Positions 1,081-10,402 of a DNA stretch of 29,896 bases are shown here, piece by piece. The notes below the pieces were generated by a model, which worked only from the letters and a program-made list of their open reading frames with translations, searched no databases and had not been told where the DNA came from. Each line of letters starts with the position of its first letter. Position 1 is the first letter of the stretch. The position numbers and the translations under genes were made by a program. Source of the DNA: a virus; the IMG/VR virus record IMGVR_UViG_3300027582_000012, positions 1-29,896 of that record, one strand, 5' to 3'.

Positions 1081-1472
1081 ACCTAAAAGACTTCAACACT
1101 TTATACAATTACAAGCACGATCCAGACGGTCGTGATTTGTGGCGAGTAATAAAGCCAGTCGAAGAAGTCTATCGGGGTGACTGCGAAGACTATGCGCTGT
1201 CCGTCCTGTATTACGTTGTGTGCAAAGAGTCTTGGATAAAATTTTGGTGGATGCTATTTACATTTAGTGCAGAGATATGCGGGTGCAAAACCAAGACGGG
1301 TGGTCATGCAGTCCTTCGTGTTGGTAAAATGTATATTGATAACTGGACAAAGGAATGGGTTGACCGAGCGCACATGGAATCTCTTGGTCACAAGTTTTGG
1401 TCTTGGAATTACACGATATTACCAACAACTGTAGTAATAAAAATGATTTTAGGGAAAACAAAAAATGACTGA
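1077..1472 (+). CDS. Transglutaminase-like cysteine peptidase (BTLCP type)
   Basis: This 131-residue protein carries a papain/transglutaminase-like triad in the expected order: Cys36 in RGDCEDYAL, His77 in GGHAVLRV and Asp88 in MYIDN. Order and spacing match the bacterial transglutaminase-like cysteine peptidase family; function is inferred from the motifs. The start is either GTG 1077, whose GTGA overlaps the previous stop, or TTG 1074; I prefer GTG. A hydrophobic patch (about 53-63, Trp/Phe-rich) lies between Cys and His, but there is no clear signal peptide. It sits before the lysis genes, so a role in cell-envelope breakdown or protein processing is possible but unproven. The gene is AT-richer than its neighbours. 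Confidence 0.7.
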   Translation: MNLKDFNTLYNYKHDPDGRDLWRVIKPVEEVYRGDCEDYALSVLYYVVCKESWIKFWWMLFTFSAEICGCKTKTGGHAVLRVGKMYIDNWTKEWVDRAHMESLGHKFWSWNYTILPTTVVIKMILGKTKND

Positions 1473-1659
1473 TTTTAGTATTGATGGACGTGAGATTGAT
1501 GTTGAAAGCCTGAGTGATCAAGGTAAAGCCGCACTGCAAAAGGCGGTAAATTTAAATCAGCAACTCTTAGGAATAGAAGAGCAACGCCAAGACCTTAACC
1601 TTCTTATGAATCACTACGCCTCAATCGTTAGAGAAGAGACTGCTGAAGAAGATGAGTGA
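1465..1659 (+). CDS. Small helical phage protein (DUF6447-like)
   Basis: The 64-residue product has the pattern FSIDGREIDVESLSDQGKAALQ, then a long predicted helix with Gln/Leu heptads (about 28-60) and an acidic end. From memory it resembles a short phage family (DUF6447) with a TIDGKEYxxxDLSDEAK-like start and a C-terminal coiled coil, but I cannot confirm membership. It overlaps the peptidase gene upstream by 8 bases and the next gene by 8, so it is part of a coupled run. Function is unknown. Confidence 0.7.
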   Translation: MTDFSIDGREIDVESLSDQGKAALQKAVNLNQQLLGIEEQRQDLNLLMNHYASIVREETAEEDE

Positions 1660-1930
1660 GTCGCTCTTAGATCGCATAGGTGTATCGGGTTATAATAAAC
1701 CCAAGCGTACACCCGGCCATCCAAAAAAGTCGCACGTTGTCGTGGCTAAGGAAGGCGATCAGGTAAGGACTATACGCTTTGGTCAACAAGGTGTGTCTGG
1801 CTCCCCTGCTAAGTCTGGAGAGTCTGAGACGGCAAGGAACCGCCGTCGATCATTTAGGGCGCGTCATGCAAAGAACATAGCCAAGGGCAAGATGTCTGCG
1901 GCGTTTTGGTCATCAAAGGTGAAATGGTAA
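1652..1930 (+). CDS. Basic phage protein of unknown function (GKMSAAFW motif)
   Basis: This 92-residue, strongly basic protein has two blocks: PKRTPGHPKKSHVVVAK with IRFGQQGVSGSP (about 17-50), and a C-terminal block RRRSFRARHAKNIAKGKMSAA ending FWSSKVKW. I recognise this pattern from many marine phage genomes, where its function is unknown. The basic, small nature would fit nucleic-acid binding or a minor virion protein, but that is inference. It starts within the end of the previous gene, and its TAA shares a base with the next ATG (TAATG). Confidence 0.8.
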   Translation: MSESLLDRIGVSGYNKPKRTPGHPKKSHVVVAKEGDQVRTIRFGQQGVSGSPAKSGESETARNRRRSFRARHAKNIAKGKMSAAFWSSKVKW

Positions 1931-2085
1931 TGAGAAAGCCAAAGAAAGGTTTGTATGCAAACATAGCGGCGAAGCGTAATCGCATCGCTAGTGGCTCTGG
2001 CGAGCGTATGCGTAAGCCCGGTACTGCCGGTGCGCCTACTGCACAATCGTTTAAAGACGCCGCTAAGACGGCCAAGAAAAGATAA
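1930..2085 (+). CDS. Very small basic phage protein (KKGLYANI type)
   Basis: A 51-residue product starts at ATG 1930 inside the previous stop (TAATG) and ends at TAA 2083-2085. It reads MRKPKKGLYANIAAKRNRIA, then SGSGERMRKPGTAGAPTAQS and a Lys-rich tail. I recognise the GLYANI, SGSGExMRKPG and GAPTA pattern as a small conserved protein of marine phages, function unknown. Its length makes it easy to miss, but the motif and coupling support it. It is highly basic with no membrane segment. Confidence 0.75.
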   Translation: MRKPKKGLYANIAAKRNRIASGSGERMRKPGTAGAPTAQSFKDAAKTAKKR

Positions 2086-2088
2086 GCC

Positions 2089-2421
2089 ATGAGTGTCGAG
2101 CAGTCAGTTGCCAAGCTGGAAGCACAGCAAGAGGCAATGGCTCAAGATGTAAGTGAGATGAAGTCTGCGTTGACTAGTATCGCTCAGACTTTGCGTGATC
2201 TATCCAGCATGGAGCAGAGGCAGATTTACTTGGCGGAGACTGTAGCCCGCGCGCACAAGCGCATTGATGAGATTCAAGCAATCGTGAAAGATGAAGTAAA
2301 GAATCACGAGAAGCGCATCCAAGCAATCGAGATCAGCATTGCGAAGAACCAATGGATCGAGCGCATTATCATGGCGGCCTTAATGACTGGCATCGGTATA
2401 TGGATTAAAGGCGGAGTCTAG
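2089..2421 (+). CDS. Coiled-coil protein with C-terminal membrane anchor (XhlA-like)
   Basis: The 110-residue protein is almost entirely helical with heptad-like spacing (about 3-82), followed by one hydrophobic segment at 91-107 (IIMAALMTGIGIWI) and a short tail. This layout, cytoplasmic coiled coil plus C-terminal anchor, resembles the XhlA haemolysin-type lysis accessory proteins. Its position directly before the holin supports a lysis role. Alternatives are a spanin-like or membrane-scaffold protein, but no lipobox is present. Its TAG overlaps the next GTG by one base. The ribosome site is weak. Confidence 0.6.
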   Translation: MSVEQSVAKLEAQQEAMAQDVSEMKSALTSIAQTLRDLSSMEQRQIYLAETVARAHKRIDEIQAIVKDEVKNHEKRIQAIEISIAKNQWIERIIMAALMTGIGIWIKGGV

Positions 2422-2816
2422 TGCTTGAGCTACTAGTCGGACCCATATCCAACCTGTTAGACAAGGTTATTCCTGACGCGGATGAGCGCAGTCGTCTAGC
2501 CCACGAGATCGCCACATTAACTGAGAGGCAAGCCCATGAAATCGCCAAAGCTCAGATCGCAGTCAACAAAGAAGAAGCATCCCATACGTCAATGTTTGTC
2601 AGTGGTTGGCGGCCTGCTGTGGGCTGGGTCTGTTGTGCTGGGCTTGCTAGTAATTATCTTCTGGTGCCTTTCGCAAATTTTGGGCTTGGTATTGCTGGCT
2701 CTGCTTATATGGTCCCCTTGTTAGACCTAAGCGAGATGATGCCTGTACTTCTTGGTATGCTTGGGCTTGGTGCAATGCGCACGGTAGAGAAGACAAAGGA
2801 CGTTGCTCGTAAATGA
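2421..2816 (+). CDS. Phage holin, 3-TM family
   Basis: The 131-residue protein has an amphipathic N-terminal half with HEIAKAQIAVNKEEA (about 39-53), followed by SGWRPAVGWVC at 61-71, which begins the first membrane segment. Two further hydrophobic stretches follow (about 86-101 and 106-120). This pattern, NKxEA then GWRPxxGWVC, is typical of the 3-TM holins first named in gene-transfer agents (GTA_holin_3TM). Such holins open the inner membrane to release the endolysin. It starts at GTG 2421, overlapping the preceding stop, and ends ATGA-overlapped with the endolysin gene, forming a standard lysis cassette. Confidence 0.85.
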   Translation: MLELLVGPISNLLDKVIPDADERSRLAHEIATLTERQAHEIAKAQIAVNKEEASHTSMFVSGWRPAVGWVCCAGLASNYLLVPFANFGLGIAGSAYMVPLLDLSEMMPVLLGMLGLGAMRTVEKTKDVARK

Positions 2817-3172
2817 CTTATAAATATTTTTCAAAGGCCGAGTTCCGGTGCAGAGAGACCCAAGAGAATAACGTCTCCGAAGACCTAATTCTGGCTCTCG
2901 ATACCCTCCGAGAGTGCGTCGGCTTCCCCCTGATCGTGACCAGCGGGTTTAGGTCTGTGAACCACAGCGCGGAGATCAATAAGCCCAACGGCCCCGGCAC
3001 CCATGCCCGCGGAATCGCCGCTGACCTTAAAGTAACCAACGGCTTTGAAAGAATGAACATCGTGCATGAGGCTTTGAAGATGGGAGTCTTCACCGGCATA
3101 GGTGTTCACAAAGATTTTATCCATCTTGATATGCGTGATTCCACACCAGTCATGTGGAGCTACTACAACTAA
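2813..3172 (+). CDS. Endolysin, M15 family zinc peptidase
   Basis: The 119-residue protein matches the peptidase M15 (M15_3) fold used to cut peptide bridges in peptidoglycan. Visible zinc ligands are His64 and Asp71 in THARGIAADLKV and His104 in FIHLD; SGFRS at 44-48 is the usual preceding motif. It begins YKYFSKAEFRC, typical of phage M15 enzymes. No signal peptide is present, consistent with holin-dependent release. Start ATG 2813 overlaps the holin stop (ATGA). It is the last gene before the early promoter region. Confidence 0.9.
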   Translation: MTYKYFSKAEFRCRETQENNVSEDLILALDTLRECVGFPLIVTSGFRSVNHSAEINKPNGPGTHARGIAADLKVTNGFERMNIVHEALKMGVFTGIGVHKDFIHLDMRDSTPVMWSYYN

Positions 3173-8706: not shown

Positions 8707-8877
8707 ATGTTCTGCACTCGTAACAATGTCCAGCACATTGAGAACCTCGGTATAGTTTGCGAACTAGTCGGGCGACTCAAAGGTTTAACAGAGTCTGAAT
8801 ACTTGGACCTCTGTGCGATAAGCAAGCTGGAGAATGCACGAGCGTTGGAGATGGCTAAACATTACCCAAGCCAGTAA
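8707..8877 (+). CDS. Small helical protein of unknown function
   Basis: I choose ATG 8707 (GAAGAG lies 4 bases upstream), giving 56 residues; an in-frame ATG at 8683 gives 64 and would be leaderless from the promoter at 8671. The product reads NNVQHIENLGIVCELVGRLK, then LTESEYLDLCAISKLENARAL, essentially two helices. No metal-binding arrangement or membrane segment is clear and I know no family. It is the first gene of the second plus-strand block, ahead of a hairpin region, a small membrane protein and the methyltransferase. Confidence 0.55.
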   Translation: MFCTRNNVQHIENLGIVCELVGRLKGLTESEYLDLCAISKLENARALEMAKHYPSQ

Positions 8878-8892
8878 GGCGAGGGAATAACA

Positions 8893-8923
8893 GGCCGAAA
8901 AGGCCGAGGGGCTTTGCACCCCC
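8893..8923. other. Two adjacent hairpins before a membrane-protein gene
   Basis: GGCC-GAAAA-GGCC (8893-8905) is followed by GGGG (8908-8911) pairing with CCCC (8919-8922) around CTTTGCA. Seven A follow rather than T, so it is not a standard terminator. It lies between the gene at 8707 and the ribosome site at 8931. Confidence 0.4.
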
Positions 8924-8941
8924 AAAAAAAGGGAGAACGAC

Positions 8942-9151
8942 GTGGAATTGAATTTATTACAGCAGTATCCAGCGCGAGTAGTGGCTGGCATTATCTTGTT
9001 TGTAGCGGCGCTAGGGATTGTGGGCAACGCTGACTTACAGGACCAGATTGATCAGCAAGAGTGGTACTGCGAGAACGTAGAGTTGTGGATCGAGTCTAAT
9101 GGTCGCAATGGTCATCCGGATTATAAGGGCATTGATTGTGAAGGTTCTTGA
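8942..9151 (+). CDS. Small single-pass membrane protein
   Basis: GTG 8942 follows GGGAG (8931-8935). The 69-residue product has a hydrophobic segment at about 13-30 (VVAGIILFVAALGIVG) with a positive residue before it, then an acidic helix and a Cys-containing end: EWYCENVELWIESNGRNG followed by HPDYKG. The YCExVxLWxxxNGxxGxPDYKG pattern occurs in small membrane proteins of several phages, function unknown. It overlaps the methyltransferase start by 14 bases. Confidence 0.7.
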   Translation: MELNLLQQYPARVVAGIILFVAALGIVGNADLQDQIDQQEWYCENVELWIESNGRNGHPDYKGIDCEGS

Positions 9152-10076
9152 TCTATTCGCTGGGATCGGTGGATTCACCATCGGTCTTGAGCGAGCAGGA
9201 TTCGAGACAGCGGCTTTCTGTGAGATAGACCCTTATGCTCAGAAAGTCCTACGCAAGAATTGGCCTGGAGTACCCATCTATGACGATGTTAGAACAATCA
9301 CAGCAGAGCGATTGGCTTCAGACGGAATTGGAGTCGATGTCATTACAGGCGGGTTCCCCTGCCAGGACATCTCAGTTTCAGGAAACCAAGCAGGAATACA
9401 AGACGGAACCCGAAGCGGCTTATGGTCAGAGTGCGCCCGTTTGCTTGGGGACATTCGACCTAAATACGCCATCTTTGAAAACGTCACAAACTTGCTTAAC
9501 GGACACGGGGGAGATTGGTTTAAGCGAGTTCTCTGGGACATTTCCGCGCTCGGGTATGATGCGGAGTGGCACTGTATACCAGCTTCCGAACTTGGCGCGC
9601 ACCATCACAGAGATAGGATCTGGATTATTGCCTACCCCCGCGGCCAGTACGGGCGGAACAACGGGCAACTGGCAACCGATCAGGCCCAGCGGACACAGAG
9701 CGCAGCTAACTTTACAGCAACACGTGAGGATGTGGCCGACACCGCTAGCGCAAGAAGCAAAACACGCAGCGCCGACAGAGTGGGAAATGACAACCAATCA
9801 TGCGGCGACTCAGAACAGCTTGCGTGTGCAAGTCAACAAGCGGAAAGTTTGGCCGACTCCAACAGCACACAATGCCAAAGAAGGTGCTTATCCTTCGGAA
9901 TACAATCGCAATACGCCAACATTATCGGCGCAAGCGGGTGGAGCGTTGAACCCAATGTGGGTCGAGTGGCTAATGGGATTCCCTCTAGGTCACACAGACT
10001 TAAATGCTTAGGCAACGCGGTAGTGCCGCCAATACCAGAGTTAATAGGGAGGGCTATAAATGAAGCTAACCTATAA
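9138..10076 (+). CDS. C5-cytosine DNA methyltransferase
   Basis: I use GTG 9138, 9 bases after AGGG, because the conserved start KVLDLFAGIGGF follows at once; a longer frame begins at 9099. The 312 residues carry the main C5-methyltransferase motifs: DLFAGIGG (5-12, S-adenosylmethionine binding), E29, GGFPCQDIS (71-79, catalytic Cys75), ENV (114-116), HRDRIW (157-162) and LKCLGNAVVP (288-297). The region between motifs VIII and IX (about 170-270) is polar with repeated VADT/LADS units and holds target recognition. The enzyme methylates cytosines, probably protecting phage DNA from host restriction; no restriction endonuclease gene is adjacent. A second long frame overlaps it. Confidence 0.92.
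   Translation: MKVLDLFAGIGGFTIGLERAGFETAAFCEIDPYAQKVLRKNWPGVPIYDDVRTITAERLASDGIGVDVITGGFPCQDISVSGNQAGIQDGTRSGLWSECARLLGDIRPKYAIFENVTNLLNGHGGDWFKRVLWDISALGYDAEWHCIPASELGAHHHRDRIWIIAYPRGQYGRNNGQLATDQAQRTQSAANFTATREDVADTASARSKTRSADRVGNDNQSCGDSEQLACASQQAESLADSNSTQCQRRCLSFGIQSQYANIIGASGWSVEPNVGRVANGIPSRSHRLKCLGNAVVPPIPELIGRAINEANL
9235..10011 (+). CDS. Nested ORF inside the methyltransferase (WPTP-repeat protein, uncertain)
   Basis: This 258-codon frame, shifted by +1 against the methyltransferase, stays open through most of it. Its peptide is not random-looking: ARTSQ (44-48), FPRSGMMRSGTVYQLP (103-118), LLPTPA (131-136), WPTPLA (167-172), WPTPTA (206-211) and LNPMWVEWLMGFP (238-250). I recall the same pattern from many phage proteins annotated as hypothetical. 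Several motifs coincide with methyltransferase motifs in the other frame (IGSGLLPTP over DRIWIIAYP, WPTPTA over LADSNS). ATG 9235 lacks a ribosome site. It could be a genuine overlapping gene, or a by-product of conserved methyltransferase codons that databases have named. Confidence 0.35.
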   Translation: MLRKSYARIGLEYPSMTMLEQSQQSDWLQTELESMSLQAGSPARTSQFQETKQEYKTEPEAAYGQSAPVCLGTFDLNTPSLKTSQTCLTDTGEIGLSEFSGTFPRSGMMRSGTVYQLPNLARTITEIGSGLLPTPAASTGGTTGNWQPIRPSGHRAQLTLQQHVRMWPTPLAQEAKHAAPTEWEMTTNHAATQNSLRVQVNKRKVWPTPTAHNAKEGAYPSEYNRNTPTLSAQAGGALNPMWVEWLMGFPLGHTDLNA

Positions 10077-10254
10077 ACAAGTAAAGGATGCGGCTAAGAT
10101 GGAAAGCGAGGGCGTCGAGGTATGGGCGCTCTCACAAATCTTCGATGTACATGATATGACGATGCGCAAATACTTACGCGCCTATTACAAGTACGGCAAA
10201 TCATTCTGGTCACGTTATCCAACTGAGGTGGAACATGGCGGATCATCGGCATAA
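10060..10254 (+). CDS. Small HTH-like protein before terminase genes
   Basis: The 64-residue product overlaps the methyltransferase end by 17 bases; GGGAGG at 10048-10053 supports ATG 10060. It contains a helix-turn-helix-like stretch, YKQVKDAAKMESEGVEVWAL then SQIFDVHDMTMRKYL (about 5-39), and an aromatic/basic part (YYKYGKSFWSRYP). It precedes the packaging genes, so DNA binding near the packaging site is possible, though a terminase small subunit is more likely at 10377. It is also overlapped at its end by the gene at 10235. Confidence 0.6.
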   Translation: MKLTYKQVKDAAKMESEGVEVWALSQIFDVHDMTMRKYLRAYYKYGKSFWSRYPTEVEHGGSSA

Positions 10255-10402
10255 GCTAGACAAGGAAACGCGAGACAGACACTTCCCTGAGTACAATGGG
10301 GGTAAGGGGTCAAGACCGCGCAAGTTCGCAACTAACAGTAGTCAATCCTATAAGGATGGCTGGGATAGGATATTCGGTGGCAAAGACAAGAGCACAACTT
10401 AA
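10235..10402 (+). CDS. Very small phage protein (NGGKG motif)
   Basis: ATG 10235 opens a 55-residue frame beginning MADHRHKLDKETRDRHFPEY, then NGGKGSRPRKF, and ending with YKDGWDRIFGGKDK. Short proteins with FPxxNGGKGxxPR followed by YxxGxDRIFG are common beside terminase genes of phages, which is the main support. It overlaps its neighbours on both sides (20 and 26 bases). Function unknown. Confidence 0.65.
   Translation: MADHRHKLDKETRDRHFPEYNGGKGSRPRKFATNSSQSYKDGWDRIFGGKDKSTT

Follow-up and report, generated by a model that had tools for sequence, protein, structure and literature searches.

A gene nested in the +1 frame of a phage C5-methyltransferase gene very probably encodes the other, DNA-recognition half of the same enzyme

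The gene for the small chain of M.EcoHK31I lies inside the gene for its large chain, in another reading frame. In M.EcoHK31I, motifs I-VIII and X are carried by the larger of two polypeptides and motif IX by the smaller, and the recognition domain is predicted to lie in the large chain (PMC3404938). M.AquI is likewise built from two chains, which are split in the variable region, with motifs IX and X both in the smaller one (PMC3404938). The window analyzed here is the whole of a 29,896-base IMG/VR virus record in which a C5-cytosine DNA methyltransferase locus is followed downstream by terminase, head-tail adaptor, head, and tail genes. We consider it highly probable that a single stretch of this DNA encodes both chains of a two-polypeptide C5-methyltransferase, namely, an alpha chain with motifs I-VIII and X and a nested beta chain with the recognition region and motif IX (Table 1).

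Table 1. Coordinates of the alpha and beta frames and of their features in the window
Feature	Position	Strand	Remarks
Alpha, C5-cytosine DNA methyltransferase ORF	9099..10076	+	325 aa from ATG 9099; motifs I-VIII and X, without IX
Beta, nested gene in the +1 frame	9280..10011	+	243 aa (MTMLEQSQ...TDLNA); putative target-recognition region and motif IX
Shine-Dalgarno-like GGAG	9267..9270	+	9 nt upstream of ATG 9280
ATG of the initial annotation, probably not a start	9235..9237	+	No silent-site constraint over 9234-9278
Doubly constrained overlap	9279..9638	+	Alpha motifs IV-VIII over the N-terminal part of beta (...PARTS...TFPRSGMMRSG...)
Three (W/L)PTP motifs of beta	9628..9861	+	At 9628, 9733, and 9850
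Mainly +1-coding region	9639..9998	+	Putative beta recognition region; predicted disordered linker in the alpha frame
Putative beta motif IX, LNPMWVEWLMGFP	9946..9984	+	hhalign onto KLSPREAARLQGFPDD of ordinary C5-methyltransferases
Alpha motif X, LGNAVVPP	10008..10031	+	hhalign; frame-0 silent rate rises again from 9999

Both frames are open across 9235-10011, as the initial annotation had it, in ORFs of 325 aa and 258 aa, and the motif pairs that it listed overlap exactly: DRIWIIAYP with IGSGLLPTP at 9612/9613, LADSNS with WPTPTA at 9849/9850, and GGFPCQDIS with AGSPARTSQ around 9351. It had proposed either an overlapping gene of wide occurrence or a frame that stays open solely through the conservation of methyltransferase codons and had named frequent +1 stops in relatives as evidence against a gene. 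Relatives were collected from viral contigs, one set by the +1 peptide and one by the methyltransferase protein regardless of the +1 frame, and both sets together with annotated phages gave 90 distinct scorable genes. The null was obtained by shuffling synonymous codons within each gene, which leaves the methyltransferase protein and the codon usage unchanged. The window gene alone has no stop in +1 against a mean of 3.9 expected (p about 0.01). Stops are nearly absent from the 90 related genes (4 seen against 308 expected), which, like the pairs in the selection count below, are non-independent samples, and the +1 frame is wholly open in 87 of them; their +2 frame, taken as a control, has 958 stops against 816 expected. 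Eleven ordinary C5-methyltransferases without the +1 protein show no deficit (140 stops against 147 expected), and the shuffle null is therefore sound. All 73 bacterial loci are open in +1 (0 stops against 227 expected; 743 against 744 in +2), a sample biased toward an intact +1 frame because it was retrieved via a +1 motif. An artefact of codon usage or composition is ruled out by the codon shuffles, the +2 control, and the ordinary enzymes.

Selection was counted with an OLGenie-like script of our own (transition weight 2, JC correction, not tree-aware) on 33 non-overlapping pairs of related genes. Rates are labeled with the effect in frame 0 first and that in +1 second, and the catalytic part begins at the PYAQ codon at 9234. 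Upstream of the +1 ORF, silent changes in frame 0 (SN) have a rate of 1.02, which falls over the ORF 4-fold and then 11-fold, to 0.26 in the catalytic part and 0.09 from motif VIII to motif X. In these two regions, dNN/dNS is 0.71 (0.59-0.85) and 0.23 (0.20-0.26) for +1 versus 1.70 and 2.29 for +2. The +1 frame thus shows purifying selection. From motif VIII to motif X, substitutions that are silent in +1 and change frame 0 occur at a rate of 0.48, and dNN/dSN for frame 0 is 1.2; since dSS is saturated, frame 0 is not claimed to be free of constraint here, and we describe it as weakly held with some constraint kept.

The periodicity of divergence per codon position changes at 9279, 9639, and 9999. 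Frame-0 third positions diverge at 0.44-0.53 in 9144-9233 and 0.41 in 9234-9278, and then at 0.14 in 9279-9323 and 0.05-0.10 in 9549-9638. Over 9639-9998, the fastest-diverging position is position 1 of frame 0, i.e., position 3 of the +1 frame, and after 9999 the third positions of frame 0 are fast once more. The earlier suggestion that the second frame has shaped the polar target-recognition region of the enzyme is supported, as +1 is the frame under constraint there and that of the methyltransferase is little more than filler. We conclude that +1 holds a real, conserved gene. The stop deficit, the fall in synonymous rate, and the purifying selection in +1 favor a widespread overlapping gene, and a frame open only through methyltransferase codon conservation is refuted by the stop and synonymous-rate tests.

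The second frame had been read as a 258-residue peptide from ATG 9235. That ORF is open, but the conserved start is ATG 9280: silent-site constraint sets in at 9279, coinciding with this codon, and the collapse of divergence at this point identifies it as the true start of a 243-aa protein. An ATG is present at the beta start site in +1 in 91 of 95 relatives. The Tyr codon that creates ATG 9280 is TAT in 82 relatives and TAC in 5; at the neighboring Tyr codon, on which ATG 9235 would depend, TAT (29) is outnumbered by TAC (56). A start at the nonconserved ATG 9235 was rejected on silent-site divergence and codon choice. One of GGAG, GAGG, AGGAG, GGAGG, or AGGA lies ahead of the beta start in 69 of the 95 relatives, and the Gly codon that forms GGAG is GGA in 42 of 47 cases versus 189 of 658 outside the overlap. 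No unusual RNA fold was found around 9220-9320 (z +1.4), and a promoter and terminator scan of 8800-10300 gave no matches. For alpha, GTG 9138 is a likelier start than ATG 9099.

Alpha matches PHROG_363 and, over residues 15-232 only, PF00145 (1.9e-50), whose motifs I, IV (PCQ), VI (ENV), and VIII are all present. Profile-profile comparison (hhalign) with six ordinary C5-methyltransferases gave 99.9% over motifs I-VIII and placed motif X (GNxV, C-terminal helix) at residues 285-309 with a weak score and in the right position; the AF2 model of alpha has helices at 285-292 and 298-311, at motif X. Motif IX was not found in alpha, as the Pfam match stops at residue 232 and hhalign gives only I-VIII and X. 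That the methyltransferase frame has the main family motifs therefore holds for I-VIII and X, and motif IX is placed in the +1 frame. In the AF2 model, pLDDT is over 90 in most blocks of residues 1-168 and under 50 at residues 196-248, and the best Foldseek match to the model is M.HhaI, over about 167 residues only. The alpha stretch where the target-recognition region is expected is weakly constrained and, judging by the model, disordered.

The +1 protein of the window matches PHROG_1008 ("DNA methyltransferase") at 3e-26 over residues 19-256, and no family was matched in Pfam and NCBIfam. By hhalign, beta residues 221-236 (ALNPMWVEWLMGFPLG) fall on motif IX (KLSPREAARLQGFPDD) of ordinary C5-methyltransferases, and beta thus appears to contain a IX-like segment. 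This is the sole match of its kind for beta and extends over 16 columns (E 0.071, prob 0.8); with such an E value, it is the position that carries the argument for motif IX and not the score. A PDB sequence search with the beta profile found nothing, and AF2 modeled beta poorly (pLDDT 59). Among relatives, beta contains from one to about five (W/L)PTP motifs (in the window, 9639-9861 in +1). Taken together with the alpha chain, the nested protein is very probably the other, DNA-recognition half of the same enzyme. The initial annotation missed that the nested protein looks like this other half, as seen in motif IX, and also missed the real start.

Relatives of the +1 peptide were found by tblastn in 109 phage records, mostly beneath genes annotated as methyltransferases. 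The initial annotation had such peptides listed as hypothetical proteins in many phages; in phage records, they far more often lie unannotated under a gene labeled as a methyltransferase, and one annotated nested copy is that of phage Redbud. A single pattern scan across bacterial genomes yielded 425 relatives, and 80 of these were kept. The latter include Pseudomonadota, Bacillota, Actinomycetota, Planctomycetota, Spirochaetota, Acidobacteriota, Bacteroidota, Verrucomicrobiota, Thermodesulfobacteriota, Myxococcota, Nitrospirota, Gemmatimonadota, Elusimicrobiota, Synergistota, Fibrobacterota, Fidelibacterota, and others. Some match was seen in about 8-10% of the sampled genomes in two groups, a share that consists in part of weak matches with stops. 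The nested arrangement recurs, mostly unannotated, in hundreds of viral stretches and in bacteria of well over a dozen phyla. Wherever alpha and the +1 protein are in different frames, the register is always +1 and never +2 (273 loci including duplicates). Only two candidates for a standalone beta without a methyltransferase were encountered (L254 and L255), and these were rejected, both being C-terminal fragments with no catalytic domain nearby.

Several copies have peculiarities of their own. E. coli PT62 has an intact prophage copy (L351; NZ_CP090448, 1254489-1255226), annotated only as a methyltransferase and well suited to laboratory work; a related prophage copy in E. coli PCP07014 (L350, 1500-2261) is annotated as a pseudogene and has a stop at the same spot in the alpha and beta frames. 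Plasmid pTO42E of Enterobacter hormaechei (L352, 2038-3063) represents a divergent subfamily in which GEQV replaces ENV in alpha and the +1 segment reads LNPALPRWLMGFPISWD; by DNA similarity, a related gene occurs in 53 E. coli genomes. Another locus (L182) carries a LAGLIDADG-like homing endonuclease sequence (MNPRIDAYAAGLLDGEGCVLL...) at 1942-2884 in the +1 frame, out of frame inside a methyltransferase ORF (1335-3057), upstream of the beta-like segment and in the same frame as it. The out-of-frame HNH in the methylase of phage ShiLan is comparable (PMC11855218).

In a split class, comprising actinophages (Achebe, PhluffyCoco, and Samy) and Paraburkholderia, the frame-0 ORF ends just past motif VIII and the +1 ORF spans the (W/L)PTP repeats, the IX-like segment, and motif X. 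Since this ORF runs through both IX and X, its product is the C-terminal part of the methyltransferase. In an alphaproteobacterial locus (L242, 2727-3716), LNPDWVEWLMGFPIGWTE is in the alpha frame and positions 2-319 of the PF00145 profile are covered, with the (W/L)PTP motifs still in +1; this gene is possibly an intermediate between the nested and single-chain forms. Two close relatives differ in that L180 is split in two frames and L181 is one fused ORF; since motif X is lost downstream in L181, the fusion may stem from an indel or a sequencing error. Split and fused forms are placed inside the nested ones in a catalytic-domain tree (midpoint root; bootstrap unsettled), and the nested state therefore looks older within the family.

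Alpha, translated from frame 0, would provide the AdoMet-binding catalytic lobe with the catalytic Cys and motifs I-VIII, followed by a flexible linker and, at the C terminus, the motif X helix. A free beta chain would arise by internal initiation at ATG 9280, downstream of the GGAG, and would bring the variable/target-recognition region, (W/L)PTP motifs included, together with motif IX to alpha. The two chains are predicted to assemble into one enzyme in which beta would determine specificity. By analogy with other phage methyltransferases, the enzyme probably serves to protect phage DNA from host restriction. It seems rather likely, though clearly less certain than the two-chain reading of the window itself, that the enzymes of this family, in phages, prophages, and many bacterial phyla alike, are obligately two-chain, with the recognition region and motif IX in +1 only and a frame-0 region that serves as filler kept open to reach motif X.

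Among other explanations, the one that survives best is a programmed +1 frameshift near motif VIII that gives an alpha-beta fusion and no separate beta chain. The frames are in the right register for this, and related genes are found split (L180) or fused (L181), but the +1 constraint, the start codon, and the Shine-Dalgarno-like site precede the point of the required shift by about 350 nt, the shift product in nested genes would be without motif X, and the fusion in L181 may reflect an indel error; we regard a frameshift as unlikely. Beta is always in the same +1 register of a C5-methyltransferase, exactly motif IX is missing from alpha, the same ORF goes on into motif X in the split class, and in L242 the motif is carried by the alpha chain. 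These observations make it slightly less likely still that beta is an independent protein of different function (a regulator, anti-restriction factor, or toxin-like protein) overprinted on the methyltransferase gene, a view with which the lack of a solved relative in the PDB search, the poor AF2 model, the lack of a Pfam match, and the weak hhalign score would agree. That +1 is open merely as a side effect of codon usage and of the conservation of methyltransferase residues, with no second protein, is very improbable, for although part of the frame (GSPARTS over GGFPCQDIS) would follow from frame-0 residues with C- or G-ending codons, the shuffles that keep both expect far more stops than are seen, ordinary C5-methyltransferases have no stop deficit, frame-0 silent sites are conserved only from 9279 onward, and over 9639-9998 frame 0 is the varying frame.

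If the two-chain reading is true, the C5-methyltransferases of this family in phages and prophages carry wrong annotations, and their specificity is unreadable from the annotated chain. Any such enzyme annotated, cloned, or codon-optimized as one ORF would lack its other half, and synthetic codon-optimized versions should be dead because recoding destroys beta. Beta is an overlapping gene of over 240 codons that occurs in many phyla, and few nested gene pairs known in prokaryotes would be as long or as widely retained. To our knowledge, gene finders drop long same-strand overlapping genes. Two frames that trade constraint along one gene make a clean natural system for dual coding, and the occurrence of nested, split, and possibly fused forms together in one tree is useful for its study.

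No earlier description of the nested family was found in the literature searched, coverage of which was partial. The +1 protein of the window is by profile a member of PHROG_1008, the label of which is silent on the alternative-frame location of its members and on which part of the enzyme they form. In Paenibacillus phage Redbud, gp51 ("g50 internal gene") is an annotated nested +1 gene in a C5-methyltransferase gene, as in the window; it is listed as hypothetical with no function assigned and is about 38% identical to the +1 peptide over the C-terminal third.

M.AquI (CYCGRG) likewise forms one C5-methyltransferase from two polypeptides, but with motifs IX and X in the small chain it resembles the split actinophage class and differs from the nested window gene. 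M.EcoHK31I (YGGCCR), going by its published description, has the same motif division as the window gene, which would thus work like it. In both, the small-chain gene is nested in another frame of the large-chain gene; in the window, this frame is +1 and under selection. The recognition region appears to belong to the small chain here, unlike in M.EcoHK31I: the stretch of the large chain where recognition is placed in that enzyme is a weakly constrained linker in the window, and the small-chain frame is the conserved one. M.EcoHK31I is also part of a restriction-modification system, whereas the window gene is a phage gene, and the family of the latter is far wider, with members in phages and in bacteria of well over a dozen phyla.
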